From Branchiostoma lanceolatum (taxonomy: Eukaryota; Chordata; Leptocardii; Amphioxiformes; Branchiostomatidae): DNA of 64,000 nt. This document shows, piece by piece, positions 268 to 32,571 of this stretch. Under the pieces are notes generated by a model that was given only the letters and a program-made list of their open reading frames with translations, ran no database searches and was not told the DNA's origin. The DNA lies in the NCBI RefSeq assembly GCF_035083965.1, contig NC_089732.1:4045383-4109382 (forward strand). The letters run 5' to 3'. The position numbers and the translations under genes were made by a program. The stretch's first letter is position 1, and each line of letters opens with the position of its first letter.

Positions 268-2439
268 ATGGCGAGTAACATGCCAGACGACTTTGACGAC
301 CAGTTCCTGACGTGCCCAGTCTGTATGCTGCACTTCCGGGACCCCAGAGTCCTGCCATGTCTGCACACATTTTGCAGGGGGTGTCTGGAAGAATGGGCCA
401 CCAAACAACAGCCGCTGGAGTGTCCAACCTGCCGCACACAGGTCAGTCTACCAGACCAAGGTGTGGACATACTCAGGACCAACTTCTACGTCAACAATCT
501 GCTGGACTTCGCGGCGGCCAAGAAAGGGGCGGAGCCAGGTGTGCCGTGCCAGGTGTGCGAGGGGAATGTGGACGGGTCAAAGTCATGGTGTGCGGATTGC
601 GCCACGTTGCTTTGTGAGTCGTGCACCGCCGTACACCGGAAACTTCCATGTTCTAAGGACCACGAAGTTACCCCTGAAGAAACCCTTAAGGCAGAAAAAG
701 ACGTGGGCAAATTTAATCGCAAGCGACACTGTCATAAGCACAAGAACCAAGAACTGGTCTTCTACTGTGAGAGCTGTAACGCTTTGGTTTGCACAGCGTG
801 CACCGTGGTCGATCATCGGCCGGGCAAAGATCACAATCCGGTGGAAATCGCCACCGTCGCTCAGAAGAAAAAGGAAACACTACACGGACTTCTGCAAGAC
901 ATAGACCCGCATCTGAAGGAAATACAGGCTTCTGTCGAGGTAGTTGAGAAGAAGATGTCAAAGTTGATGCCCTCGAAAGAAGCAGCCACAGACCAAGCCA
1001 AAGCGTATTTCCGCCGACTTGCTGACCTTCTGCAAAATCGTGAAAAGGAGATTTTGAGCCAGATTGACGAACAGTGCCGAGCCGATGGCAAGGCTCTACA
1101 GACAAAGAAGGAAGCGATAGAGTTTGAGTTGGCCGGACTGACGAGCGCACAAACGTTCTGTCAACAAGCTGTAGAACACGGAAGTGACGTGCACATTTTG
1201 GAGGTAGGACACCAAGTACAGACAAGGGTAGAAACTCTGCTGGCAAAAGAACTGGACCTGGAGTCTGACTGGAGCGAGTTTCAGTTCGTTGAGAACACGG
1301 CTGTCGCAGACTTTGACAAAGTGGTTGAAGACTTGGGTGGCGTCAAAACAAACGTCGATGTGTCGAAGTGCAAAGTTGCTGCGAAGCCAGCAGTTCAGGG
1401 GTTTGAGTGCGTCGCTGAACTGACGATAGTAAATAAAGAAGGGCGTCCATGTGTTACAAACAGTAAAGCCGTCACAGCAAACATGAAGGACCCGTCTAGG
1501 ACCGACGTCCCGACGCAACGACAGATGAAGACCGGGGGTGTGTGGGAAATCGCGTATGTACCCAATGTTACGGGGAATCACAGTTTAGAGGTCAAGGTCA
1601 ATTCACAACAGGTGACAGGAAGTCCGTTTGACATTGAAGTGAAGGGAAACCCCGTACTGACTATCGGACAGAAGGGCAGTGGAGTGGGGGAACTGAACCT
1701 TCCGATAGATGTCGCGGTTGATAAGGACGGTAACATTGCAGTTCTGGACCGGAATAACAAACGAGTCCAGGTTTTTGATGGACACAAAGGTCACTCCTTG
1801 TGTACTTTTGCCGTTGACGGTGAGAATCCATTTGGTATTGATGTGGACTCCAATGGGAGGATTCTTGTGACAGCATGGGGTGAAAAATGCGGCATAAGAC
1901 GTTACTCCAAAGAAGGTGAACTTTTGAGCACATTCAAGCCGAACTGCATGCGCAGCCCACATGGCCTGAAGGTTCTAAAGGATGGCCGCATGGTGGTGGC
2001 GAACGCCAGGCAGCCTTCCTGTCTCCTCCTCCTGCAGCCAGACGGGAGCCTCATCCGGCAGATCGGCAAGGGGCAGTTACAGAAGCCAGCGTTCGTGTCG
2101 GTAGATGAGTCACGTGGTGTGATGGTCGTCACAGATAGCAGCGCAAACAAAGTATTTGTGTTTGACCTTGACGGAAACCAAAAGTTCAGATTTGGTAAGA
2201 AAGGACAGAATGATGGGGAGTTTCAAAATCCAGAAGGTGTCACATTAGACCAGGCAGGTAATATCATTGTAGGAGACTGTATCGGCCGTTTGCAGGTGTT
2301 TGGGTCTGACGGGAAGTTCATTCGGACTGTGGCGACCGTAAAAGGAGATGATGTAGCTGGACTCGCTCTGACTCCTGGCGGTTACTTAGCGGTGGGGTGT
2401 TACAAGGGACATTGTATAGAGCTGTACAGGTACATGTGA
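268..2439 (+). CDS. TRIM-NHL protein 1 (RING, two B-boxes, coiled coil, filamin repeat, NHL propeller), intronless
   Basis: A 723-codon single-exon gene for a predicted cytoplasmic RING-type E3 ubiquitin ligase of the TRIM2/3/71-like class (TRIM C-VII). The C3HC4 RING occupies about residues 16-56 (CPVC, CLHTFC, CPTC). Two B-boxes lie at about 94-135 and 153-195, a coiled coil at about 200-320, an Ig-filamin repeat at about 380-470 ending in GSPFDIEVKG, and NHL repeats from about 478 to the end. Typical NHL phrases are GVAVDxxGNIAV-like starts and FGKKGQNDGEFQNPEGV. In this family the RING recruits E2~ubiquitin, the coiled coil dimerises and the NHL binds RNA or protein. ATG 268 was chosen because MASNMP immediately precedes the RING and aligns with the starts of the other copies. 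It is one of two intact copies here. The particular orthologue cannot be fixed because lancelet-type genomes carry many. Confidence 0.92.
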   Translation: MASNMPDDFDDQFLTCPVCMLHFRDPRVLPCLHTFCRGCLEEWATKQQPLECPTCRTQVSLPDQGVDILRTNFYVNNLLDFAAAKKGAEPGVPCQVCEGNVDGSKSWCADCATLLCESCTAVHRKLPCSKDHEVTPEETLKAEKDVGKFNRKRHCHKHKNQELVFYCESCNALVCTACTVVDHRPGKDHNPVEIATVAQKKKETLHGLLQDIDPHLKEIQASVEVVEKKMSKLMPSKEAATDQAKAYFRRLADLLQNREKEILSQIDEQCRADGKALQTKKEAIEFELAGLTSAQTFCQQAVEHGSDVHILEVGHQVQTRVETLLAKELDLESDWSEFQFVENTAVADFDKVVEDLGGVKTNVDVSKCKVAAKPAVQGFECVAELTIVNKEGRPCVTNSKAVTANMKDPSRTDVPTQRQMKTGGVWEIAYVPNVTGNHSLEVKVNSQQVTGSPFDIEVKGNPVLTIGQKGSGVGELNLPIDVAVDKDGNIAVLDRNNKRVQVFDGHKGHSLCTFAVDGENPFGIDVDSNGRILVTAWGEKCGIRRYSKEGELLSTFKPNCMRSPHGLKVLKDGRMVVANARQPSCLLLLQPDGSLIRQIGKGQLQKPAFVSVDESRGVMVVTDSSANKVFVFDLDGNQKFRFGKKGQNDGEFQNPEGVTLDQAGNIIVGDCIGRLQVFGSDGKFIRTVATVKGDDVAGLALTPGGYLAVGCYKGHCIELYRYM

Positions 2440-3905
2440 TCTGAGACCCACCAGACTTATTGTCACTTCACATCGTCACATCTTCCTAGAATGAATGTAC
2501 ATGTACTTTTTAATGACCTTGTTGTGTTAGTCTTGCATTAAGTGAATAATGTTCCTTGAATTATCTTTGACCAGGGATTTCTGATGATACGTCAGATCCT
2601 TTATCGTATCTGATACGATAAAGTATTTAAATGATAGTGACCATTGATGGCTAGATCATTTTCTATAAGTAACTGATAGAATGCAATCCCTACCAGTGGG
2701 AGGCAAATTTCGAAGAACGCCATCAACTCGCCGGGATTCAAGCCCACAACCTTGTGATCCAGATGTTCTTTGCTGATTGCTTGACAATTCCATGCTACAG
2801 AGCGAATACAACAGATACCAAATATACTTAATGCTTGTTCTAGTTGTCATTTTATTCAAATCATTGCAACATTATCAGCAGCAAAGATATTAACCTCCCT
2901 CAAATAAGTGGAAATGATTCAGTCACTTATAAACTTCATTGCTGTGACACGACTGGTACATTGAAATACAAGAACTGTTCACAATTATTAGTTTTACAAA
3001 TATAGAAAAAAAATTGGCCCATGATTTTTTATGCCCAACAATTAAAAAGGTGCTGTAAGATCTTGATAGTATACCATTGCAAAATTAAATTCTTCCCCCT
3101 TTACAATGGATGATATTGGCTGAAATGAGGTGAATAAAGATCTTAACATGAATATTGAACTAAGTTTATTGATTATGAAGTGGGGAAAAGCAAGAATTAG
3201 CTTCTTCAACATGTACCTCCAAGGTGTAGTATTTTGGAAGGAGGGTTTAAAAACGTCTATTATCCTTCCCTGTAATCTGTTCGGTCCGTAAGCTGTCTTA
3301 GTGTTTCTCTGCTGTTGTAATCCAACATGAGGTGATTTGTATCCTAACAACCATGCAAAAAACAGACTAACTGATGGTGGGGAAAGGTATCTAGTGGATT
3401 GTTTTTGTCTGCTGTTTCCCAAATTTACCCCCATATCATGTTGGTACAGTCTACCCACCTGTTGGCGCCTCGCCAATTCAAGTGAAATGACCTTCAACAG
3501 AGAGGGACGGGCCAAGAAAAGGCTTTGTTAGGGATCATTGCATGTAATGGTGGTATCCGTTTTAAGGTAGTGCCAATTAAACTATGTTCTTCAACCCCGG
3601 CATTGATAAACGTAGCAACTGCTCAGGCCCTTTATGTACATATTCCCATCCGCCGTGTCCCCAAAAGTTTAGAGTTCACGCGCAATGCCTGATGGATCAA
3701 GTTCGCTCAAAACAATGTCGTCATCATGTATCACCTAGCAACCTGTTTGCTGTAGTCAAGTGACGTAAGTCACCTCACCGAAACTTACTTCTTGGAAGAA
3801 GCGGGACAGAAACTCAACAGCCTCACTAAGAGCTAGACGTGTCTACGCTAGTATTGTACATTCGGTCAGTGTGAATTTCTAGAAGTCAAGTCTTAGGTCT
3901 GCAGA
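2440..3905 (+). repeat. Duplicated 3' flank of TRIM gene 1 plus 5' flank of the next copy
   Basis: No gene seen. About 2640-3660 recurs at 9600-10530, in part at 10610-11400, and more weakly at 21750-22100. About 3420-3600 recurs inside units A, B and C. From about 3655 the TRIM 5' flank begins and leads into ATG 3906; its CRE-like element reads TGACGTAAGTCA near 3760. A small palindromic tract (ATCGTATCTGATACGAT) lies near 2602-2620. This block is the spacer of the tandem TRIM duplication unit. Confidence 0.7.
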
Positions 3906-6900
3906 ATGGCGAGTAACATGCCAGAAGACTTTGACGAGCAGTTCCTGACGTGCCCAGTCTGTATGCTGCACTTCCGGGACCCCAGAGTCCTGCCATGTCT
4001 GCACACATTTTGTAGGGGGTGTCTGGAAGAATGGGCCACCAAACAACAGCCGCTGGAGTGTCCAACCTGCCGCACGCAGGTCAGTCTACCAGACCAAGGT
4101 GTGGACGGACTTAGGACCAACTTCTACGTCAACAACCTGCTGGACTTCGCGGCGGCCAAGAAAGGGGCGGAGCCAGGTGTGCCGTGCCAGGTGTGCGAGG
4201 GGAATGTGGAGGGGTCAAAGTCGTGGTGTGCGGATTGCGCCATCTTAATGTGTGAGTCATGTACATTGCTACACAGTAAGTTTCCAACTCAAAAAAATCA
4301 CGAAGTTACCTCCGAAGCGACTATCAAGGCAGAAAAAGACGCGGGCAACTTTCAACGCAAACGTCACTGCCACAAACACCAGGCCCAAGAACTGGTCTTC
4401 TACTGTGAGACCTGTAACGCTTTGGTTTGCACAGCATGCACTGTTGTCGATCACCGGCCGGGCAGAGATCACAATCCGGTAGAAATCGCCACCGTGGCTC
4501 AGCAAAGAAAAGAAGAACTGCAAGGACTTCTACGGGACATAGACCCACGGCTGAGAGAAATTGAGGCTTCTGTCAAGGAAGTAGAGAAAGAGATTTCAAA
4601 GTTGATGCCTTCGAAAGAAGCATCAACAAACCGAGCCAAGGCGTATTTCCGCCGACTTGTTGACCTTCTGCAAAAGCGTGAAGAGGAGATTTTGAGCCGG
4701 GTTGACGAACAATGCCGACTCGATGGCAAGGCTCTGCAGACAAAGAAGGAAGCGATAGAGTTTGAGTTGGCCGGACTGACGAGCGCACAGACGTTCTGTC
4801 AACAAGCTGTAGAACACGGAAGTGACGTGCACGTTCTGGAGGTGGGAAACCAAGTCAAAACAAGAGTAGAAACTCTGCTGGCAAAACAGCTGGGCATTGT
4901 GTCTGACTGGAACGAGTTTGAGTTCGTCGAGAAAACGGTTGTTGCGGACTTTGAGAAACAGGTTCACGACTTCGGTGACGTAAAGACAAAGGTCGACGTT
5001 TCGAAGTGCACAGTCGTTGTAAAGCCGGCAGTTCAGGGGTGTGTGTGCGTTGCTGAACTGACGACAATAAATAAGGAAGGTCGTCCATATGTTACAGACA
5101 GCGAGGCCGTCACAACCAACATGAAGGACCCGTCTGGAAAGAACGTCCTGACAACACAACTACAGAGTGGAGGCAGGTGGGAAATCTTTTACGTACCCCA
5201 GGTCACGGGCAACCACAGATTAGAGGTCAAGGTCAACTCACAGCAGGTGGCAGGAAGTCCGTTTGATGTTATTATTATTGGACAAAAGACTGATGATGGG
5301 GTGGGGAAACGGAACCGCCCGGTACGTGTTGCCAAGCCTGGTGTGGGCAAAACATCCAAGTCTGGATTCTCCTTCGTAAGAACTGGCCAGTCAGGTTATG
5401 GCTTTGGAGCATCACAGCAAACAGCAGAGGCCACTAAGCTAAAGACAGGGTTTTCCTTCGGGTTTGCTCTGCCACAGACATCCACTACGAGTCAGACTAC
5501 AGCACTAACAACAGGCTTCCAGTTCAAACCACCCCAACCAGAAACAAGTGACAGTGCTCAGTCCGGAGGCTTCTCCTTCAAGCTGGACCAATCACAGCCA
5601 TCTCAGTCATGTGTTGGACTTAAGTCTGGCCAATCCCAGTCCACTACTCCCAGCCAATCAGGATTCAAGTTTGGCGTAGACCAATCGCAGTCAAGTAAAG
5701 GTAGCCAACCAGCAACCAGTACTGAAGGAAGCAAGTTCACCTTTGGTGATGTGAAAGGTGGGCTCTCTGTTAGTGATGGCACTATGGGGGGAGTCTTTTA
5801 AGTTCTTTTTTGGCGACATCTCCGGGGTGAGCCTATTCATAGTATTGTGTGCAGTCTGCAAAAATTCTTGTACAGGAATGTGTCTATAGTAATTTCAGTC
5901 CACAGGACGATAGCTCAAGAATACCTGGACGGATTGTCTTAATATTTGGTATGTGGGTAGGTCTTTGTTAGACCTCGAAATTATTTGATTTTGGGCCCCA
6001 AGTGACTTTCTATGGTACTGTAGAGGAACTTCCGGTTTTGATATCTCCTGTCCTGAACAAGCTACGGTCATAATTTTCTAGTGGTGGGTAGCTATTGAGA
6101 GGGAGAATAAGTCAAGTGGTGTAAGTTCAGGCGCCCTAGCGTTTTTTTGCAACTGTAGGGCTTGATTTTGTTTCAAACGTTGAAAGAGAATATAGCCGGT
6201 AGCTCACGAAGGATAAATGGATCGTCATGATTTTTGTTTTGTAAATAGCTTAAGTCATCATTCAAATAACCATATGCTAATTATGCAAATCAATCGCATT
6301 ATTAATGACAGAGTAAAGTTTAGTAATCCGCTGCAGTCCATTACAGGATTCTCAAACAAATGACATATGGAACTGAGAATCAGCTGGGCATGATGTGGTT
6401 ATGTTAGTTGCATGTTCACACTGCCTGTTATATGCCAACTCTCTTCTTTTAACAGTTTAGTTGTTAGTAAATGTCTCTTACCCAATTCCTTATTCTGTAA
6501 CCCCAACCAAATACCAAAGACTTTTAGTGTACTCTCCAAGCAGAGGAGTGGGTCCGGCAGGTTTTTGGCGTGTTTTTAGGCGTTTTTGTCGGGCTATCTA
6601 CTTTGTCATGGTTTCTTTGTCTCTATAACCCACACCTCTGCCGGCACTGACCTCGGGGCGGAGGAGTTACTGCCACCTTTTTTCAATGGAAGCAAATAGG
6701 TTTGCCCCGCCCCGAGGTCAGTGCCGGCAGAGGTGTGGGTTATAGAGACAAAGAAACCATGACAAAGTAGATAGCCCGACAAAAACGCTTAAAAACACGC
6801 CAAAAACCTGCCGGACCCACTCCTCTGCTTGGAGAGTATTTTAGTGCATGTATGCATTCTTAGAATAAATCTGACAATCCGCAAGCACAGCTTGAAGTCA

Positions 6901-7949
6901 CAGGGTGCTGACTGAAGATTTTACCTTCTCTCTTAACAGACAAAGCCACTGCAGAAGGCGATCTGGATGACATCTTTATGTACGAAAAGAAGCCGACAAC
7001 AGATCAGATCGAACGGGCGAAGAAATTCCTCCTGCCTCCCACGTTCTACTTGTACGAGGACAAGCCACTTCCGGAGGGGTGGACTGAAGAGGACAAGCTT
7101 GACGACAAGCCAGAACGACGTGTCGTCAAGGGTGGGGAAACGCCTGGCAACGCCTCAGAAGCTGTAGGTAGCAAAACAAGTCAAAGCACGGACGCTTTTG
7201 GCACTGCATCATCCAATCTAGTGTTTGCAGACCTAATTGGAGCAAAAACACAGGATTTCGCCTGGGGGAAGTCTGACAAGCCGTTCGGAGGTTTCCAAGG
7301 TGCTGGCACGCAACTGTTTGGGACCCTGAACACAAGCCAGGAGAGCGATGGGGCAGAGCCAAACATTGAGGAAGAGCGTGATGATATCTACTTTGAACCC
7401 ATCATACCTCTGCCAGATAAGATGGAACTGGTCACAGGAGAGGAGGACGAAAGAGTCCTGTACGAACAACGGGCCAAGCTCTTCCGATGGGACAAAGGTA
7501 CCAACCAGTGGAAAGAACGCGGCATTGGCAACATTAAGTTCTTACTACACAAGACGACGAAGCGTATCCGTATCATAATGCGTCGTGACCAGGTCCTGAA
7601 AGTGTGTGCCAACCACCTCATCACCACGGACATGACGCTGAAGCCAAACGCTGGATCGTGGGTGTGGCACGCCATGGACTGCTCAGACGAGGAGCCAGCT
7701 TTCGAGCAGTTTGCAGTCAGGTTTAAGAGTACAGAAATCGCAGAAGAGTTCCACAAGCGTTTTGAACAATGCCAGGCCATGCTGATCGACGTGATGCCTC
7801 CCTCCCCGAGCAAAAACGCCGGTCCTTCCCGGGAGTCCCAGCTCATCAACAGTGCAAAGAAGCTTAAGTCAGAACTGAAGTCGCTGAAAGAGCAGTTCGC
7901 CGTAGCGGCGCCGGGAATGCAAAGCCCTCGCGAATCAGAGGAACAATAG
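3906..7949 (+). CDS. Chimeric TRIM-RanBP2-like protein: RING, B-boxes, coiled coil, filamin repeat, FG region, Ran-binding domain
   Basis: Exon 1 (3906-5757) encodes a TRIM N-terminus almost identical to the neighbouring TRIM-NHL genes: RING about 16-56, B-boxes, coiled coil, filamin repeat about 380-472. The first NHL strand is still recognisable (IGQK..GVG..N.PV.VA), then after about residue 480 it turns into FG-type sequence (GFSFG, GFKFG, FTFG). A donor at 5758 (AAAG|GTGGGC, phase 1) matches an acceptor at 6939 (TCTCTTAACAG, phase 1). Exon 2 (6940-7949) continues as RanBP2: the EKKPTxxQ...LPPTFY motif, FADL...DFAWG, then a complete RanBD1 fold (FEPIIPLP, AKLFRWD, QWKERGIGNIKFL, MRRDQVLKVCANH). 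The joined product would be 953 residues. RanBD1 binds Ran-GTP; a ubiquitin ligase aimed at Ran or nuclear-pore cargo is inference. If the intron is retained, translation stops at 5801 (631 codons). Sequence identity of both halves is clear; expression is not shown. Confidence 0.8.
6530..6838. mobile_element. Snap-back MITE (TACTCTCCAAGC family) with perfect 8-bp target duplication, in the TRIM-RanBP2 intron
   Basis: Arms of roughly 135-150 bp are inverted copies of each other, starting TACTCTCCAAGCAGAGGAG and ending CTCCTCTGCTTGGAGAGTA. Both ends are flanked by TTTTAGTG (6522-6529 and 6839-6846), an 8-bp target duplication as made by hAT-type transposases. No coding capacity. Related but more diverged hairpins lie at 45641-45820, 58166-58297 and probably 37358-37495. 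Confidence 0.85.
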
Positions 7950-9326
7950 GCCGACACCCTGGCCGCCATGTTACACAAGGAACGAGCTGACACTCCCGGA
8001 AGCATCGACCGACTGGAGTGGGTCAACTACGACATACGAAAAGACAGCAGCCACGACACGTCAAACCAGAGTTTCTTTGGCAGCACGTCTCAACCGTCTT
8101 CATTCTCTTTCTCGGCATCGTTTGCGGACAGCAGGAATTTGTCCCTGAACTTGAACAAGATTGAGCCCGAGGAAGATGAGTATTACCAGGATGACGAAGA
8201 AGACAATATTCATTTCTCGCCGATCGCCACCCTACCAGAGAACGTGGCCATGGAGCACGTGACAGCAGAGACCACTAAGCCGAAGACAGGGTGTGCTTTA
8301 CCACAAACGCCGCTGTTGCGGTCCCTCATCATGTCCACACCTACCAACACGAAGCCAGCGGCCGCTATGGCATCAGAGGATGGACAGAAGGGTTTGCCAA
8401 ACCAGACCATGCGCACCAGCGATTCCATCTCGTTAACACGCGCGTTCACAGAACCGTCGCAGCCGCTCTCCCTGACCATCGCAACCAAGTACCCGATTCT
8501 TACCACCATGGTCGACCCGAATACTTTCCGATCTACGCCCAAGCTCATTGTTCCCAGGAGCTTGACCTCAATTCGGGGAGTACTCCGACCAATCAAAATC
8601 ACAATCGGAGGAGGAAGAAATCTCAACACCTGACTCAGAGTATGACTCTGACTCTGACTCACATATTCAGATTGGCCCCGGGTATTTCAGGCCTCCCGGA
8701 GAAACAGAGTCTCCAATAACTTTGCCTCAATAGGTGAGGGAGATCCGGCTAGTGATTTATCAAAAAGCCTATCTAAGAACCTGTTCGTCACAGGCGAAGA
8801 GCGGATGTTCCAGCGCCCGGAGGAGGTGGAAAGGGAAAACCAGGAGCTGGCGAGTGACGACGAAGTCCCAGACGAAACAGAAGTGCATGATGATGGTATC
8901 CACTTTGAGCCAATCGTGACCCTCCCGGACACAGTCGAACTGAAAACCGGGGAGGAGGACGAAGACGAAGTGTTCGTTCATCGGGCGAAGCTGTTCCGTT
9001 TCGACAAGGACAACCACCAGTGGAAGGAACGGGGCCTCGGCAACATCAAGGTCCTCAAGAACCGGCACAATCAGCGCTTCCGCATCCTGATGAGACGTGA
9101 CCAAGTCCTGAAGATTTGTTGCAACCACTACATCACGGCCGACATGTCGATGAAACCGAACGCAGGCTCGAACCGGACGTGGGTTTGGGTCGCCATGGAT
9201 TTCGCTGAGGAAGGGGGCAGGAAGGAACAGTTTGCTGTCAGATTCAAGGAGGCAGAAACAGCCCTGGAGTTCAAGAATAGAGTGGATGAAGCGATCCGGA
9301 TCATCACCTCCTTGCCTGTTACATAG
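7950..9326 (+). pseudogene. Downstream RanBP2-like segment with a degenerate and an intact Ran-binding domain, out of continuous frame
   Basis: Immediately after the TAG at 7947-7949 the same frame continues as RanBP2-like sequence (ADTLAAMLHKE..., then SFFGSTSQ, SFSFSASFADS and an acidic stretch leading to NIHFSPIATLP, the lead-in of a Ran-binding domain whose body is missing). That frame ends at 8633. A second frame carries an acidic run at about 8566-8730 (FGEYSDQS, DSEYDSDSDS), and the first frame resumes after about 8652. It then holds a complete RanBD1 (about 8880-9300: FEPIVTLP, AKLFRFD, QWKERGLGNIKVL, MRRDQVLKICCNHYIT, WVWVAMDF) up to the TAG at 9324-9326. Either the part beyond 7949 is decaying, or small unseen introns rejoin it. 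RanBP2 carries several such domains, so the repeat order is as expected. Confidence 0.6.
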
Positions 9327-9382
9327 CGGTGGCGTGTTGGAAGGGCCTAGGGACACGCATAGAACTGTACAAGTACATCTGA
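9320..9382 (+). pseudogene. Vestigial last 21 codons of a TRIM NHL domain
   Basis: Starting at TAC 9320, in a different frame from the Ran-binding domain, the sequence reads YIAVACWKG...ELYKYI-stop. This matches the end of the TRIM-NHL gene at 19357-21531 (YIAVACFRGHCVELYRYK-stop). About 17 bases (ACATAGCGGTGGCGTGTT region) are identical to 21477-21495. It shows that the RanBP2 segment sits inside a former TRIM-NHL gene. The stop codon of the Ran-binding ORF (TAG 9324-9326) is made of these NHL bases read out of frame. Confidence 0.8.
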
Positions 9383-11220
9383 TCGTAGACTAACTGGGCG
9401 ATCGTTGCACACCAGCATCAGACTCTATGTGTCTTCTAGTGATCTTGCTGTACCTTTAAATTAGTCTCCTAAAAATGATGGGTAACTTAAGGGCAGAATT
9501 ACAAGTTAAATGCATGCATATTCCAAATTCCTAAAATTGTCTTATGCCAAGGACTTTATGATGATATGGTTAAGTTTCTTAAGTGACACTTAAGTGCATG
9601 ATAGGTTAATTTCACTGTCAGGAGACATTGTCTGTTACCTGATTGAAGAATACAATCCAGTGGGAGGCAAAATTTGGCTAAGAATGCTGACAGATGTGCT
9701 CTAGATGTATTTGGTAATTGCTTGATAATGCCATGCTACAGAACGAATACAACAGATACCAACTATGTTTTGTGCTTGTTCTAGTCATCAATTTATTCAA
9801 ATCAAAAGGCAACATTATCAGCAGCAAAGGTATTAACCTCCCTGAAACAAGTGAAGATGTTTCAGTCACTTATCAACTTCATTGCTGTGACACCACTGGT
9901 ACATTGAAATAGAACAAGTGTTCACAATTATTAGTTTTACAAATATAGAAAACACAATTGGTCCATGAATTTTTATGCCCAACAATTAAAACGGTGCTGT
10001 ATGATCTTGATAGTATACAATTGCAAAATTACATTCTTCCCCCTTTACAATGGATGATATTGGCTGAAATGAGGTGAAAAAAGATCTTAACATGAATATT
10101 GAACTAAGTTTATTGATTATGAATTGGGGAAAAGCAAAAATTAGCTTCTTCAACATGTACTTCCAAGGTGTAGTATTTTGGAAGGAGGGTTAAAAAACGT
10201 CTATTATCCTTCCCTGTAGTCTGTTCGGTCCGTAAGCTGTTTTAGTGTTTGTCTGCTGTTGTAATCCAACATGAGGTTGTTTGTATCTTAACCCGAGGAA
10301 CAGACTAACTGATGGTGGGGAAAGGTATCTAGTGGATTGTTTTTGTCTGCTGTTTTCCAAATTTACCCCCATATCATGTTGGTACAGTCTACCCACCTGT
10401 TGGCACCTCGCCAATTCAAGTGAAATGACCTTCAACAGAGAGGGACGGGCCAAAATAAGGCTTTGTTGGGGATCATTGCATGTAATGGTGGTATCCATTT
10501 CAAGGTATTGCCAATTGACTCTGTTCTAATCTTCGCTTCGCTTCGCTCACTCGGTGGTTTTATTCGGTGGTTATAGCACCTGGCCAGGCGTTATGACACC
10601 ATATACACCTCGGGGCGGGTCATTAACCCTTAATTCTTGTTCTAGTTGTCATTTTATTCAAAACACATGCGACATTATCAGCAGCAAAGATATCAACCTC
10701 CCTGAAACAATTGAAGATGTTTCAGTTACTTATCAACTTCATTGCTGTGACACGACTGGTACATTGAAATAGATTATCTTTTCACCATTATCGATTTTAC
10801 AAATATGAAAACACAACTGGTCCTTGAATTTTGTGCACAACAATTAAAAAGTTGCTGTAAGATATTGATAGTATACAATTGCAAAATTACATTACAATGG
10901 ATGATATTGGCTGAAATGAGGCGAAAAAGATCTTAACATGAATATTGAACTAAGTTCACTGATTGTGAAGTGGGGAAAATAAAAAAAAAATAGCTTCTTC
11001 AACATGTACTTCCAAGGTGTAGTATTTTGAAAGGAGGGTTAAAAAACTTCAACGTTCTATCGTTCTTTTCCCTGTAATCTGTTCGGTCCGTAAGCTGTCT
11101 TAGATTTTGTCTGCTGTTGTAATCCAACATGAGGTTGTTTGGATCCTAACAACTAAAAGACAGACTAACTGATGGTGATGAGAAAAGGTATCTAGTGGAT
11201 TGTTTTTGTCTGCTGTTTTC
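9383..11220. repeat. Two successive copies of the TRIM 3' flank
   Basis: No gene seen. About 9600-10530 is a diverged copy of 2640-3590, and about 10610-11220 is a second, shortened copy of the same flank, joined through a short CG-rich patch at 10535-10615 that has no match elsewhere in the window. These are spacer parts of the tandem TRIM array. Confidence 0.65.
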
Positions 11221-11427
11221 CAAATTTACCCCCATATCATGTTGGTACAGTCTACCCACCTGTTGGCGCCTCGCCAAACCCAGTGAAACGACCTTTTAAA
11301 ACAAAGAGGGACGGACCAAGAAGCTTTGTTAGGGGTTGCTGCATGACATTGTGGCATACATTTTCAGGTACTGTAGTGTCATGTAAACTGTGTTCTTCAA
11401 ATCCGATATTCACGTAGCAACTGCTCA

Positions 11428-11983: not shown

Positions 11984-12377
11984 CTGCACTTCCGGGACCC
12001 CAGAATCCTGCCACGTCCACATACATTTTGTAGGGAGTGTCTTTGGGCCACCAGACAACAGCCACTGAAGTGTCCAACCTGCCGCAGACAGGTCAAGGCG
12101 TGGACGGACTTAGGACCAACTTCTACGCCAACAACCTGCTGGACTTCGCCGCGGCCAAGAAAGGGGCGCCCAAAGAAATATTTCCCAACTTAGTAGAGGT
12201 TGTTTCCCACAGACTGCTTCAAAAACTTTATCGGAAACACCACAGCGCGATTCCAGTCCGACTTCACCCTGGCCGGGTGGGTCTTCACGCTCTGGGCAGT
12301 CATCTTCTTCTGGAACCTCATCTGGCACTTCTACGCGCTTACAACCATCCGTCGCACTGAGGTACAGAATGTTCACC
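11984..12377 (+). pseudogene. RING fragment fused to membrane-protein exon, copy A (frameshifted)
   Basis: The TRIM part starts inside the RING (LLHFRDPRILPRPHTFC, CPTC), lacks the initiator Met and first zinc ligands, and runs to FAAAKKGA. It then joins sequence matching intron 1 and exon 2 of the gene at 57058 (FTPAGWVFTLWAVIFFW-type exon at 59409). In copy A the captured exon is frameshifted after VEVVS, so it is dead as written. In the RING the histidine ligand context is kept but PCLH has become PRPH, losing a cysteine. Confidence 0.75.
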
Positions 12378-13554: not shown

Positions 13555-14045
13555 TTAAACATGATACTGATAATGAAAGAACCAAAACATGTAAGATGGT
13601 TCCCCCATAACCTTCCAAAGTATAATGCATCCATGTTTCAGTGAACTGTAAACTGAACTGATATGTGATTATTAGCAGGTGAACAATGAACAATGACAGA
13701 ATAGAATGTCTCCGTAAGCTGTTTAAGTGTTTGTCTGCTGTTGTAATAAAAAATGAGGTTGTTTGGATCCTGACATCCTGACAACTAAGAAACAGAGTAA
13801 CTAATGGTGAGAAAAGGTGGATTGTTTTGTTCTGCTGTTTTCCAAATGTACCCATCATGTTGGTACAGTCTACCCACCTGTTGGCGCCTCGCCAAACCCA
13901 GTGAAACGACCTTTTATAACAAAGAGGGACGGACCAAGAAGCTTTGTTAGGGTTTGCTGCATGACATTGTGGCATACATTTTCAGGTACTGTAGTGTCAT
14001 GTAAACTATGTTCTTCAAATCCGATATTCACGTAGCAACTGCTCA

Positions 14046-14250: not shown

Positions 14251-14585
14251 GCAACTGCTCAGACCCCTTATGTTTATATTCACACACACTATCTCCCCAG
14301 ACGTTCATAGTTCACGCGCGCTGTCTGGTCGATCAAGTTCGCTCGAGATAATGTCGTCATGAACGTCCAATGGATGAGTTCTCTACAATCAGGTGATATC
14401 AGCCACGTCACCAAAACTAGCTTCCCAGAACATAGGTCCTAACAGATCGTGCAGGGAATTTGAGAAACTTCACAGTCGGATTGAAACGACTAGTGAAGAC
14501 GCACCATACAAGGCTTGTTTGTTTTGGTTTGTTAATTTGTTTGAGACTTAATCAGTTACCTTAATTATTGTTCAAAATCAATCTG

Positions 14586-14975
14586 CTGCACTTCCGGGAC
14601 CCCAGAATCCTGCCACGTCCACATACATTTTGTAGGGAGTGTCTTTGGGCCACCAGACAACAGCCGCTGAAGTGTCCAACCTGCCGCACACAGGTCAAGG
14701 CGTGGACGGACTTAGGACCAACTTCTACGCCAACAACCTGCTGGACTTCGCCGCGGCCAAGAAAGGGGCGCCCAAAGAAATATTTCCCAACTTAGTAGAA
14801 GTTGTTTCCACAGACTGGTTCAAAAACTTTATCGGAAACACCACAGCGAGGTTCCAGTTCGACTTCACCCCGGCCGGGTGGGTCTTCACGCTCTGGGCAG
14901 TCATCTTCTTCTGGAACCTCATCTGGCACTTCTACGCGCTTACAACCATCCGTCGCACTGAGGTACAGAATGTTC
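14586..14975 (+). pseudogene. RING fragment fused to membrane-protein exon, copy B (frame open)
   Basis: From ATG 14639 the frame stays open through GVDGLRTNFYANNLLDFAAAKKGA (TRIM) into IFPNLVEVVSTDWFKNF and the hydrophobic exon ARFQFDFTPAGWVFTLWAVIFFW..HFYALTTI, and on to 15157. The bases at the junction match the intron before 59409 (ATATTTCCCAAYTTA... TTCCACAG), so the intron end has become coding here. The RING is truncated and cannot be functional. If translated, this would give a small membrane-anchored peptide. Confidence 0.65.
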
Positions 14976-15224: not shown

Positions 15225-16420
15225 ATATCTACATATGATTCAATTATTCATGTTCAATACCTACAGCTACTATCATATTGCTTAGCTGTTTGTTGCTTTA
15301 ATAAAATCGTACAGTCTTTGCTTGCAACTAAACAGTGCCCGTGTCTATTAGACCCTCCCCCTGAGACACAGGTTCAAGACTCCGGCGGTGAAAACAGCGA
15401 ACGGCCAGAAGATTTTGGAGACAGTTGGCTGACTGACCCTCTCTCTACCCCTAGCAACTAACCGACCGCCATTTCACCGAACACTGACGGCCATCCTGGA
15501 TTCTAGTTGAACGCCTACCCATGCTACGATAGTTCATTGGTAGTTTAAAAATATTTACTACCAAGTTACTTAATAAATATAATTACTTCAGTAACGCGAT
15601 TAGAGTTACGATAATTTTGCTTTGAGGAAAAACTTGGCTAACATTGATCACAAAGCGAGGCAAATCTAGATTCTGGCAATGGTGTAGGAGAGAGGGGAAG
15701 TTTAGCACACGATATATTATTTGTGTCCAAAGATATTAAGTACAGGATCACATATAGATATCTACTTATGATTCAATTATCCATGTTTTATACCTACAGC
15801 TACTATCATATTGCTTAGCTGTTTGTTGCTTTAATACAATCGTACAGTTTTTGCTTGCAACTAAACAGTGTCCGTGTCTTCTTTTCTATACTGTCTATAT
15901 TGAAAGTCTATTGAAAAAGCTTAAACATGATACTGATAATGAAAGAACCAAAGCATGTAAGATGGTTCCCCCATAACCTTCCAAATTATACTTCATCCAT
16001 GTTTCAGTGAACTATAAACTGAACTGATATGTGAAAAATCAAAGAATATTAACAGGCGAACAATGACAGAATAGAACGTCCGTAAGCTGTCTTAGTGTTT
16101 GTCTCCTGCTCTAATCCAACATGAGGTTGTTTGGATCCTAACAACTAACAAGCAGACTAACTGATGGTAATTAAAAGGTATCTAGTGGATTAACATTGTT
16201 TTTGTCTGCTGTTTTCCAAATTTAGCCCCATATCATGTTAGCACAGTCTACATCACCTGTTGGCGCCTCGCCAAACCCAGTGAAACGACCTTTTAAAACA
16301 AAGAGGGACGGACCAAGAAGCTTTGTTAGGGGTTAATGCATGACATTGTGGTATACATTTTCAGGTACTGTAGTGTCATGTAAACTGTGTTCTTCAAATC
16401 CGATATTCACGTAGCAACTG

Positions 16421-16629
16421 CTTAGTCTACAAAGCCTACAGTCAGGAGTTCCCCACCCCCAGACCCCGGGGAAGACCATCTAAGCGATGGAAAGACCAGA
16501 TTGTGAAAGACACTGGGTTAAACATTCGGGAAGCAGAGGCAAGGGCAAGGGACAGGACTTCTTGGAGGAACCACCTGAAGAGCAAGGGACCAGTTTCTGG
16601 CCTGTGCACGTAGGCAGGTAGGCAGGCAG
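16421..16629 (+). mobile_element. 5'-truncated LINE 3' end in unit C
   Basis: Third copy of the LINE fragment, with the reading RGRPSKRWKDQI...IREAEARARDRTSW. The left target duplication has lost 8 bp relative to units A and B. Confidence 0.8.
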
Positions 16630-16968: not shown

Positions 16969-17370
16969 CTGCACTTCCGGGACCCCAGAATCCTGCCACG
17001 TCTACCGTGACATTTTGTAGGGAGTGTCTTTGGGCCACCAGACAACAGCCGCTGAAGTGTCCAACCTGCCGCAGACAGGTCAAGGCGTGGACGGACTTAG
17101 GACCAACTTCTACGCCAACAACCTGCTGGACTTCGCCGCGGCCAAGAAAGGGGCGCCCAAAGAAATATTTCCCAACTTAGTAGAAGTTGCTTCCACAGAC
17201 TGTGCTTCAAAAACTTTATCGGAAACACCACAGCGCGGTTCCAGTTCGACTTCACCCCGGCCGGGTGGGTGTTCACGCTCTGGGCAGTCATCTTCTTCTG
17301 GAACCTCATCTGCCTGATCTGGCACTTCTACGCGCTTACAACCATCCGTCGCACTGAGGTTTAGAATGTT
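16969..17370 (+). pseudogene. RING fragment fused to membrane-protein exon, copy C
   Basis: Same structure as copies A and B, from the truncated RING to FAAAKKGAPKEIFPNLVEVAS. A base insertion at the exon start (GACTGTGCTTC) shifts the captured exon out of frame. The RING is truncated. Confidence 0.7.
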
Positions 17371-17548: not shown

Positions 17549-18463
17549 GTTCAAGACTCCGGCGGTGTAAAAACAGTGAACGACATACCAGAGATAATTT
17601 TGGAAATAGTTGGCTGACTGACCCTCTCTCTACCCCTAGCAACTAATACCGACCGCCATTTCGCCGAACACTGACGGCCATCTTGGAGTCTAGTTGAACG
17701 CCTACCCGTGCTACGATAGTTCATTGACATTTTCAAAATATTCACTACCAAGTTACTTATAATTACTTCAGTAACGCGATTAGAGTTACAATAATTTTGC
17801 TTAGAGGAAAAATTTGGCTAACATCGATCACAAAGCGAGGCAAATCTAGATTCTGGCAATGGTGTAGGAGAGAGGGGAAGTTTAGCACAGGATTATTTGT
17901 GTCCAAAGATGTTAAGTACAGGATCATATAGATATCTACTTATGATTTAATTATACATGTTAGATACCTACAGCTACTATCATATTGCTTAGCTGTTTGT
18001 TGCTTTAATGCAATCGTACGGTTTTTGCTTGCAACTAAACAGTGCCCGTGTCTTCTTTTCTATACTGTCTATATTGAAAGTCTATTGAAAAAGCTTAAAC
18101 ATGATACTGATAATGAAAGAACCAAAACATTTAAGATGGTTCCCCCATAACCTTCCAAAGTATAATGCATCCATGTTTCAGTGAACTGTAAACTGAACTG
18201 ATATGTGATTATTAGCAGGTGAACAATGAACAATGACAGAATAGAATGTATCCGTAAGCTGTTTTAGTGTTTGTCTGCTGTTGTAATAAAAAAATGAGGT
18301 TGTTTGGATCCTGACATCCTGACAAGTAAGAAACAGAGTAACTAATGGTGAGAAAAGGTGGATTGTTTTGGTCTCCTGTTTTCCAAATTTACCCCCCATA
18401 TCATGTTGGTACAGTCTACCCACCTGTTGGCGCCTCGCCAAACCCAGTGAAACGACCTTTTAA

Positions 18464-30980: not shown

Positions 30981-32571
30981 TTAAAGTCTGGTGTCAAACT
31001 CTTGGTCTGAGTTCTCGTCATCAGTGTTGTCGTCTCTATAGTCACTGCAGACCGAGGATGTGCTCTCCCGGTTGCTCGCCTCAGCTTCTGAAGTATAGCG
31101 AAACATGTACACTCCATCGCCTCGTGCCCCCTTAGTACTGTCACCCCGATCCCTACTCTTTTCACGGTCATACTTTTTCTTGAAGCTACTTTTGATCTTT
31201 TTCCAAACGCCCTTCGACCCTTTCATAGACGACTTTGGCGATGTCACCGGAAGACTTTCTCGACTGCTTCCGAGGTACGACGAAGCCTGCGACGACAGCG
31301 ACGTGTCGGAGTCCACCCTATACCTCAGCGCGGGGCGTAGGGCGATGGACGGTGGGTTGCTGTTTGACACTTGATTCCATCCGGTGTATTCCCAACTCTG
31401 TCTGTAGTATTGGGTGCTGTAGATGTCATCCATACTCAGGGGACGTGGTATGGGGGTGAGGGGCACTGCATCGTGGCTCTTGCGTCGCACGCGGACGTCG
31501 GCGTATGGTGGGTCGTCTTGGGCGCTATCCACTTCTGCAGAGCCGTTCAAGACCACTCGTGGTGGGACCGGGGGAGGTGACATGTCCTCCCGTGACGTCA
31601 TCTCAGCTGATGAGTCGCGTCCGTAAGGGCTTGCTGCCATTCTGGACGGACGTGGTGGCACGGGAGGCCGCGCTGAACGCTCGGACCGGTTCTCGTCGTC
31701 TGTGTGGTGGATTGGTGGTGCGCTATGCGCACTACTGCTTAATGTAGTGTGACGTAACTTCGTGTAATATTCTGCGTCATCATTTGCTTCGCCGTCATCA
31801 TCAGAGTCTTCTCCCGCCACACCCGCTGGAGTATCAGGTCTATCCACTCTCGGGCTGTCCTGCATCTCATGGGTCCTGCTTGGTACGTTGTGTCCGTAAG
31901 ATGGGTTTAGGAAAAACGATGTGCGAACAACTCTGATTTCTGATTTCTCCTCTGCTTCGTCGTCAAGAACATCACTAGTCTCGCTTGCACCGTCGTCAAA
32001 AGCATCGCTTGCGGTCAGTTGTGCACATTGCAGTTTGTAATTCAGCTCGGCAACTAGAGGCGCCCTGCTGAGCGAATTGTTATACACGACTTCTTGGCCT
32101 CGGGAGCTCTTTTCAGAGCTTGCGACTGATTGGTTTGATTCCAAGCCCAACGTTGTGCACTCTATTTCATTGAGATTCTCTAGATCTGTTGGAGTGCACG
32201 TGGGGCTCCCCGACCGTTGGCTACCGTCAGACAGCCGCGTGCTGTTGGTTCCCGCCGTTGAACGCGACTCCGCCGACTGCCAAGTCCCGGATGTTACGTC
32301 ACTGCTGACGGTGTCGACCGTTTGGTTGCTAACCTCTGACGTCATGGTGAAGAATGTGTCGACGCTGCTTTGCGACACGTTGTCGGCGGCGTTCCAACCC
32401 ACAATGCAGTGCCTCAACGTGTAGTCGGCATCGCTTTGTAGTAGACCCTGGCGGAAGTAGTGGAGGTCCTGGTGGTTGAGAGCTGCATTCAGACTCTCTT
32501 CGTTTCCACCAGGAGCATGTTGCTTGTAGGTGCCGTTATCGCCGATGTCCAACAGCGGCGAAGTGGATGGA
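30981..32571 (-). other. Disordered C-terminal tail with SH3-ligand and tyrosine motifs (exon 28)
   Basis: A single 1591-bp last exon coding about 530 residues, rich in Ser, Thr, Asp and Pro. Two PPVPPR cores (RPPVPPRPSR and PPPVPPRV) are class II SH3 ligands. Tyrosines lie in YADV, YTKL, YNNS and DIYSTQYY contexts, possible SH2-binding sites if phosphorylated. A polybasic patch (KKIKSSFKKKYDREK) near the end could bind acidic lipid. Low complexity makes the function uncertain, but the frame is open and uses the same splice phase (2). Confidence 0.75.

Follow-up and report, generated by a model that had tools for sequence, protein, structure and literature searches.

We asked whether a TRIM-NHL gene of the amphioxus Branchiostoma lanceolatum has exchanged its NHL propeller for RanBP2 sequence, as a sequence-only reading of this locus had proposed, and what protein the resulting gene would encode. 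The window is the whole 64,000-nucleotide stretch that was analysed (contig NC_089732.1, positions 4,045,383 to 4,109,382). Its features are summarized in Table 1.

Table 1. Features of the window (positions counted from its first nucleotide)
Feature	Position	Strand	Evidence and remarks
Neighbouring intact TRIM-NHL paralogue A, 723 aa	268..2439	+	NHL matches by Pfam
Exon 1: RING, B-box, coiled coil region, filamin, then RanBP2 FG repeats	3906..5757	+	open frame; Pfam; residues 1-617 = P0122
RING finger, residues 16-55	3951..4070	+	C3HC4 spacing intact; PF00097, 34.3 bits; zinc-ligand regular-expression match
B-box zinc finger (B-box 2)	4356..4475	+	PF00643, 36.8 bits
Filamin repeat	4992..5264	+	PF00630, 36.8 bits
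RanBP2-derived FG segment (5' end = TRIM/RanBP2 junction)	5331..5757	+	81% to P0124 residues 1738-1878, E 7e-68; 84.9% to P0313
Intron, GT-AG, phase 1 on both sides	5758..6939	+	AAAG/GTGGGC ... CTCTTAACAG/ACA; join identical in P0122
Foldback (MITE-like) element within intron	6530..6838		132-nt arms, 99% complementary, 45-nt spacer
Exon 2: IR half-motif, FG linker, RanBD-a, TAG at 7947-7949	6940..7949	+	residues 618-953 = P0122
IR1-M-like half-repeat (DDIFMYE ... LPPTFYLYE)	6978..7079	+	PF12185, 25.7 bits (cut-off 25)
RanBD-a, sole RanBD of the encoded 953-aa protein	7425..7778	+	PF00638, 166 bits; pLDDT; Foldseek
Remnant past the stop, weakly RanBP2-like	7950..8255	+	tblastn 28%, E 1e-4 over 8046-8255
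Remnant of RanBP2 sequence lying upstream of RanBD1 in RanBP2	8259..8492	+	73% to P0124 990-1067
RanBP2 RanBD1 region	8478..9326	+	frame-shifted stretch 8566-8721 and four TGA; RanBD-b inside
NHL-end fossil of the host TRIM gene	9308..9390	+	62/84 columns identical (74%) to window 2372-2447
Open TRIM-NHL paralogue C, 724 aa	19357..21528	+	aligns with NHL end of P0313

Gene structure and encoded protein

The spliced frame of the window gene encodes 953 residues in the order RING, B-box, coiled coil region, filamin, RanBP2 FG repeats, IR half-motif and one RanBD, and is closed by the TAG of exon 2. Pfam bore out the RING, B-box and filamin sequence that had been read from 3906 onward. The RING scored above the cut-off for PF00097, PF13445 and other families, and its zinc ligands were intact and in order. 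In the putative coiled coil region, residues 151–327 could be aligned to the TRIM3 structure 8amr, and TRIM3 and TRIM2 were the best solved relatives of the TRIM half. The TRIM sequence changes to RanBP2 FG sequence at about 5331–5335, in accord with the switch previously placed at about 5335, and positions 5331–5756 were 81% identical to P0124, the RanBP2 of B. lanceolatum, in which Pfam found no RING, B-box or filamin repeat. The IR match was marginal (25.7 bits, yet 23.6 bits with P0122 scanned whole); the human IR chains 3uin and 1z5s matched the half-repeat with E values of 6.5e-5 and 8.2e-5, respectively. A complete IR1-M-IR2 was absent, the protein having a single half-repeat with 34 residues matched. 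Pfam gave no match to a TPR or a RanBP2-type zinc finger in the coding part of the chimera, in which the number of in-frame RanBDs was one.

The splice phases across 5757/6940 agreed, as had been read from the sequence, and the first 953 residues of P0122, a public B. lanceolatum model, matched the spliced frame at 953 of 953 positions. The open frame, the in-phase join and the public model thus place the RBCC and RanBD parts in one spliced frame. P0122 is a prediction that was probably made on the assembly containing the window, so that it shows annotation rather than expression and is probably not independent support. Without splicing, the frame of exon 1 remains open past the donor to a stop (TAA, 5799–5801), so that a TRIM-FG product of 631 aa could arise from an unspliced transcript. 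This open frame would also suit two genes, a truncated TRIM gene ending at that stop and a RanBD gene driven independently by a promoter of its own, but exon 2 continues RanBP2-type sequence in agreeing phase, and both P0122 and the second chimera described below (P0313) join the two parts. We consider the two-gene arrangement highly improbable.

RanBD-a aligned best with human RanBP2 RanBD2. In the AlphaFold model, the pLDDT block means were 91–98 over residues 171–280 of exon 2; the model overall was poor (mean pLDDT 69.7, pTM 0.45) because the linkers are disordered. The top Foldseek match was the human RANBP2/Ran/RanGAP1-SUMO1/UBC9/CRM1 complex 9b62, followed by Ran-bound RanBP2 RanBDs, and the TMt against RanBP2 RanBD2 (7mnx_H) was 0.93. 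The region agreed at 42 of the 44 columns that were at least 90% conserved (25 relatives picked from 120 listed). The misses were residue 1, opposite the start methionine of the relatives, and F258 in place of L. Furthermore, RanBD-a was three residues short in the GSDRSWVW loop, and it had no supported neighbour in a tree of 18 RanBDs.

Sequence beyond the stop codon

Two complete RanBDs had been proposed for this gene, and the locus does contain two that are Pfam-complete (E values of 5e-49 and 1.5e-50), but not in one frame. Between them the exon 2 frame meets five stops, namely the TAG at 7947 and TGA at 8631, 8643, 8649 and 8655, and positions 8566–8721 resemble RanBP2 only when read out of this frame (79% to P0124 1321–1368, E 9e-24). 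The stops and the frame-shifted stretch led us to reject both RanBDs in one protein from the window DNA. The sequence after TAG 7949 is a non-coding remnant, and the 3' end has decayed. RanBD-b (8937–9296) is open in itself and 94.6% identical to RanBD1 of amphioxus RanBP2, and the two RanBDs therefore differ in origin. Since the RanBD2-like domain comes first and the RanBD1-like domain second, the latter preceded by RanBD1-upstream sequence, the order is permuted relative to RanBP2. This permuted order, together with identities that differ between the parts, led us to reject a recent, straightforward copying of a single stretch of RanBP2.

P0122 runs past residue 953 by omitting 7949–8002 (54 nt) and 8511–8657 (147 nt), both multiples of three. 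The real product might then have 1345 residues and contain both RanBDs, as P0122 does, being made from an allele or transcript without these two short segments, and the open and well-conserved RanBD-b would fit such a product. However, the omitted segments end GG..AG and GT..GA in the window instead of GT-AG, the two omissions together take out all five in-frame stops, and P0122 reads 8658–8721 in a non-RanBP2 frame, a pattern that resembles an annotation device. We regard the 1345-residue product as improbable.

The NHL end that had been reported to reappear at 9320–9382 was recovered as a somewhat longer remnant (E 2e-8 in the small comparison with window 2372–2447). This fossil lies outside the frame, and the NHL propeller is not in the encoded protein.

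A second chimera and the origin of the fusion

P0313, named 'TRIM2 [Branchiostoma lanceolatum]', is a distinct chimera with the TRIM-FG-IR order and the GDVK/DKA join of the window gene, and thus independently carries the proposed TRIM-RanBP2 fusion. It was the closest relative found, having the TRIM/FG junction, the FG segment, the IR half-motif and the exon join in common with the window gene. After the IR part, P0313 continues with RanBP2-type zinc fingers, FG sequence, another filamin repeat and finally an NHL end, without a RanBD match. The TRIM parts of the two chimeras agreed at 88.9%, against 80.2% and 80.0% between the window gene and paralogues A and C, respectively. The corresponding value for FG was 84.9%, against 80.7% (window gene and RanBP2) and 82.3% (P0313 and RanBP2), a difference that is modest over some 140 columns, and that for the IR region was 74.7%, against 47.3% and 43.4%. 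Moreover, GKTSKS at the junction represents derived letters common to both chimeras. These results suggest one capture followed by duplication of the chimera. The capture probably happened once and left B. lanceolatum with at least two chimeric genes.

The locus region is repeat-rich, and an RNA-family scan gave one tRNA. An assembly or annotation artefact fusing two unrelated genes could be imagined from the repeats and from models that are predicted only, and the sequence-only reading had named an artefact at 5335 as what would refute it. P0313, which comes from a record that differs in length and is only 85–89% alike, repeats the identical junction and exon join, so that such an artefact is very unlikely; the NHL fossil also comes after the RanBP2 piece, as capture inside a TRIM-NHL copy predicts. 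The proposed replacement of the NHL propeller holds for the window copy but not for P0313, in which the RanBP2 piece precedes the filamin-NHL end. The first event would thus have been an insertion or recombination, with NHL lost later from the window copy. Retrogene capture is not preferred, because the protein match to RanBP2 is interrupted at the position of the intron (5756/6927–6940), and our guess is that the RanBP2 piece was captured at the DNA level.

The main rival is a decaying pseudogene, produced by recombination in the tandem TRIM cluster and not, or no longer, used, whose 953-codon frame is residual. The broken 3' part, with its five stops and frame-shifted stretch, is in keeping with decay; the cluster seems to shed dead copies, to judge by the truncated RING fragments near 12.0, 14.6 and 17.0 kb; and zebrafish ftr52 offers the precedent of a spliced transcript with a premature stop (PMC3137616). 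Against this, the GT-AG sites and phase are kept, the RING ligands and RanBD core are intact, and both chimeras are open over their common 732–747 residues at 17% divergence, the frame of P0313 having been chosen to be open because it is a predicted model. When neutral evolution of the first 747 codons was simulated up to an amino-acid divergence of 16.7%, with no indels and all divergence taken as neutral, the mean was 7.9 stops, and 1 of 1000 runs was stop-free. The dN/dS of the window branch, for the TRIM half only and including the time before fusion, was 0.35 (bootstrap 0.23–0.51, none of 500 reaching 1), higher than those of paralogues A (0.23) and C (0.19). We judge the pseudogene unlikely, albeit of real weight. 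The preferred reading, to which we assign a probability of roughly 0.6, is that an amphioxus TRIM-NHL gene captured a RanBP2 piece, that the chimera was duplicated, and that the window copy encodes a 953-residue putative Ran-directed RING ligase.

Related proteins, putative function and known systems

A zinc-ligand pattern run over 359 proteins, plus the window-derived P0121, flagged P0122, P0313 and P0326. P0326 (1588 aa) has a TRIM-like RING/B-box N-terminus followed by RanBP2 sequence; it differs from the window gene in having RanBP2 zinc fingers, four RanBDs and an IR-like end, and no filamin match. Its N-terminus matched the TRIM56 RING (5jw7, E 3e-10) and TRIM2 (8a38, E 9e-8), and it agreed with P0313 at 28% over 261 columns (BLAST E 7e-18). 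Of the 359 proteins, only P0122 and P0313 were picked up by a profile of amphioxus TRIM N-termini, so that P0326 rests on the zinc-ligand pattern, these structure and BLAST matches, and Pfam scores that were below cut-off for both RING (19.5 vs 25.2) and B-box (23.0 vs 24.1). NCBIfam gave no match above cut-off for P0326, P0313 or P0122. Even in its best-matching stretch, the body of P0326 resembled amphioxus RanBP2 at only 34–35%, and P0326 may be a merged gene prediction. In three protein searches (lengths of about 190–603, 946–3010 and 525–1667 aa, the latter two scoring the candidates that shared most words), a RING and a RanBP2-type domain in one protein, read by eye from the Pfam column, occurred in 0, 1 (P0122) and 2 (P0122 and P0313) proteins among the best 120 of 170, 1114 and 493 matches, respectively. 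The only other named Branchiostoma entry among the matches listed was RanBP2 of a B. floridae x japonicum hybrid.

In the proposed mechanism, a tandemly duplicated TRIM-NHL (TRIM2/3-like) gene would have taken in RanBP2 FG repeats and then an exon with the IR half-motif and the RanBD2-like domain. The RING/coiled-coil half would form a dimeric ubiquitin ligase, the RanBD would hold Ran-GTP and hence Crm1/importin complexes under disassembly at the pore, and the FG and IR parts may add affinity for transport receptors or the Ubc9/SUMO-RanGAP1 machinery. Such a ligase would act on transport complexes that contain Ran, on the cargo of these complexes or on foreign particles docked at the pore. 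We infer that the product is most likely a RING ligase whose targets would be complexes of Ran-GTP, of nuclear export or of RanGAP1-SUMO.

Zebrafish ftr52 (PMC3137616), the two amphioxus genes and the distant P0326 all combine a TRIM N-terminus with RanBP2 sequence. That TRIM ligases repeatedly and independently took the Ran/FG/SUMO docking module of RanBP2, under recurrent selection for a pore-stationed ligase, is a doubtful extension of these cases. If true, such ligases would attach ubiquitin to export complexes with Ran-GTP, to assemblies of SUMO-RanGAP1 or to viral particles docked at the pore, and the repeated fusion of TRIM and RanBP2 partners would be testable grounds for proposing a ubiquitin ligase directed to the pore. 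The automatic names 'E3 SUMO-protein ligase RanBP2-like' and 'TRIM2' are suggested to denote one gene family.

TRIM ligases acquire targets through swaps of the C-terminus, and TRIM5-cyclophilin A (TRIMCyp) is the classic case. The window gene resembles TRIMCyp in being a TRIM ligase with an exchanged recognition end; TRIMCyp is reported to carry a retrotransposed CypA and restricts retroviruses, whereas DNA-level capture is our guess for the window chimera, and the antiviral or transport function proposed for it in the sequence-only reading is hypothetical. RanBP2/Nup358 is the source of the FG, IR and RanBD parts, and the window gene lacks its hallmark of an N-terminal TPR with several RanBDs in one protein. 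RanBP2 is reported to bind and SUMOylate TRIM5alpha at the pore and to be required for its antiviral action (PMC6237768). Another study describes Branchiostoma subfamily C TRIMs, of the same TRIM subfamily and genus as the window gene, with a foreign C-terminal MATH domain ascribed to recent recombination; these are B. floridae proteins with MATH domains instead of RanBP2 sequence (PMC3503706).

Among the literature matches listed, which covered openly available journal papers, no paper on an amphioxus TRIM-RanBP2 chimera was found. The earlier statement that no TRIM-RanBD protein had been described is contradicted by zebrafish ftr52, a transcribed finTRIM gene with the order RBCC-RanBD-CypA, a premature stop in all reported PCR products and a spliced transcript, for which a one-step DNA insertion was proposed (PMC3137616). 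Both ftr52 and the window gene have a TRIM N-terminus, a RanBP2-like RanBD and a stop. ftr52 is a finTRIM (class IV) gene with RanBD and cyclophilin over four exons and the stop in the RING exon (PMC3137616), whereas the window gene has a TRIM2/3-like (class VII) host with filamin, the FG-IR-RanBD series, no cyclophilin and its stop after the RanBD. We take ftr52 and the amphioxus fusions, set apart by these descriptions, to be independent events.

Coding frame and domains of the chimeric gene

All 953 residues encoded by the spliced frame of the window gene (3906–5757 plus 6940–7949) coincide with the first 953 of P0122, a 1345-aa public protein named "E3 SUMO-protein ligase RanBP2-like [Branchiostoma lanceolatum]". 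Exon 1 encodes a RING with all C3HC4 ligands present, a B-box and, after a region aligning to the TRIM3 structure 8amr, one filamin repeat. The change from TRIM to RanBP2-type sequence, which the sequence-only reading had set at about 5335, was placed at ~5331, where FG repeats begin with 81% identity to residues 1738–1878 of P0124 (B. lanceolatum RanBP2). The agreement of splice phases across 5757/6940 was likewise borne out by a GT-AG intron, phase 1 on either side. In exon 2, an FG linker connects an IR half-motif (25.7 bits; cut-off 25) to a single RanBD (RanBD-a, 166 bits), and TAG 7947–7949 terminates the frame. We hold with high confidence that the chimeric gene structure is real.

Two RanBDs had been assigned to this gene. 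The first lies in the coding frame, and five in-frame stops (7947, 8631, 8643, 8649, and 8655) separate it from the second (RanBD-b, 94.6% identical to RanBD1 of P0124); the protein contains one RanBD, not two. The pieces 3′ of the stop are in non-RanBP2 order: window 8259–8492 corresponds to P0124 990–1067 and window 8430–9323 to P0124 1276–1566, RanBD1 included, and the RanBP2 match at 8566–8721 (79% to P0124 1321–1368) occurs only in a different frame. The NHL end of the host TRIM gene, correctly noted as reappearing, persists as an 84-column match at 9308–9390, beyond the TAG and outside the frame. P0122 spans this region by skipping 54 and 147 nt (window ends GG..AG and GT..GA, neither of them GT-AG), each length a multiple of three, and in this way evades the in-frame stops. 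The bridging was treated as an annotation device; transcripts could show otherwise.

A second chimera and the history of the capture

A search with residues 440–953 gave P0122 and P0313 among the best 120 of 493 matches. P0313 (1280 aa, "TRIM2 [Branchiostoma lanceolatum]") has the order RING, B-box, filamin, FG, IR half-motif, RanBP2-type zinc fingers, FG, filamin, NHL, and has in common with the window gene the junction letters GKTSKSGFSF (GTVSQSGFSF in P0124) and the exon join GDVK/DKA. The two were 88.9% (TRIM), 84.9% (FG), and 74.7% (IR) identical, and the TRIM part of the window gene was 80.2 and 80.0% identical to those of the neighbouring TRIM-NHL paralogues A and C, respectively. The identities to RanBP2 were 80.7% (FG) and 47.3% (IR) for the window gene and 82.3% and 43.4% for P0313. 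Because of the TRIM and IR margins, the FG margin being small, a single capture followed by duplication of the chimera would be the simplest history. The FG identity between P0124 and P0125 (B. floridae x japonicum RanBP2), 86.0%, exceeded that between the window gene and P0124, so the capture may predate the split of these amphioxus, or the chimera may evolve faster. Given the low IR identity, the donor exon may be absent from the RanBP2 isoform compared (X5). In P0124, an IR-like LPPTFYFYED motif (residues 1911–1956) lies ahead of the second RanBD; this isoform lacked a cyclophilin match, in contrast to many vertebrate RanBP2 among the matches listed.

A zinc-ligand pattern across 359 proteins flagged P0122, P0313, and P0326. 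P0326 (1588 aa) starts with a TRIM-like RING and B-box, below the Pfam cut-off, that matched TRIM56 (5jw7, E 3e-10) and TRIM2 (8a38, E 9e-8) using phmmer and P0313 at 28% over 261 columns (E 7e-18); a profile from amphioxus TRIM N-termini missed it. The protein continues with four RanBDs and RanBP2 zinc fingers and finishes in an IR-like end (judged from letters). Because its body was ~41% like the best-scoring other protein of the fetched set, over the aligned stretch, and about 34–35% like amphioxus RanBP2, P0326 is not a close relative and probably does not stem from the same event. It is possibly an independent TRIM-RanBP2 fusion in another organism, or may be a merged gene prediction.

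Constraint, predicted fold and surroundings

The main rival explanation is that the window gene is a pseudogene. The TRIM-half branch leading to it (466 codons), which spans pre-fusion time too, gave dN 0.077, dS 0.218, and a ratio of 0.35 (bootstrap 0.23–0.51; none of 500 replicates reached 1); the ratios for A and C were 0.23 and 0.19. When neutral evolution of the first 747 codons was simulated up to an amino-acid divergence of 16.7%, without indels and taking no account of predicted models being picked as open, a mean of 7.9 stops arose, with 1 stop-free run in 1000. Exon 2 matched 42 of 44 highly conserved columns (25 chosen relatives). Its model reached pLDDT 91–98 over residues 171–280, with disordered linkers (overall mean pLDDT 69.7, pTM 0.45). 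The nearest solved structures were human RanBP2 RanBDs with Ran, headed by 9b62, a RANBP2/Ran/RanGAP1-SUMO1/UBC9/CRM1 assembly. The RanBD tree gave no supported neighbour for RanBD-a; alignment over a longer stretch favoured human RanBD2. A function for the window gene is plausible as a prediction.

The near-perfect foldback in the intron resembles a recent MITE-like insertion. The sequence preceding the TRIM copy, at most 0.6 kb long, repeats along the first 20 kb, 78–93% alike and partly as shorter pieces, a mark of tandem duplication. Near the RING pieces at 12.0 and 14.6 kb are frames with a common hydrophobic, membrane-like stretch, GWVFTLWAVIFFWNLIWHF; these pieces and frames may represent a new gene, small and present in several copies. 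The 558-codon frame is perhaps the cytoplasmic part of a receptor.

Features surrounding the chimeric gene in the window
Feature	Position	Strand	Remark
Foldback element in intron	6530–6838		132-nt arms, 99% complementary
Shorter stretch related to foldback	45633–45747		
Copies of TRIM-preceding sequence	3000–3625, 9943–10527, 10803–11427, 13711–14045, 16078–16425, 18251–18459		
Three truncated RING pieces	11984–12168, 14584–14770, 16969–17155		same TRIM family
558-codon open frame	30984–32657	minus	acidic, proline-rich by eye
tRNA gene	60684–60765	minus	66 bits

Proposed mechanism and known systems

Judging by the domain make-up of the protein, its RING and coiled coil would give a dimeric ubiquitin ligase. 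RanBD-a is predicted to bind Ran-GTP, with further contacts to transport receptors and the SUMO machinery supplied by the FG and IR parts. RanBP2 with RanGAP1-SUMO1/Ubc9 is reported to disassemble Crm1 export complexes (PMC4866044), and TRIM5alpha is reported to be bound and SUMOylated by RanBP2, on which restriction depends (PMC6237768). A TRIM with the docking module of RanBP2 built in could reach the same site as RanBP2, with no partner required.

The literature searched showed no two-gene family in which a TRIM of the filamin type carries FG-IR-RanBD; both genes exist as public models. The sequence-only reading knew of no described TRIM-RanBD protein, which zebrafish ftr52 contradicts: its spliced transcript specifies RBCC, RanBD and CypA in one protein, but the exon for the N-terminus contains a premature stop (PMC3137616). 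Branchiostoma subfamily C TRIMs acquired MATH domains through recent recombination, according to PMC3503706. There is thus precedent for capture of new C-termini by TRIMs, in Branchiostoma too, and for fusion of a TRIM with a RanBD, and there are hints that TRIM-RanBD fusion is recurrent.
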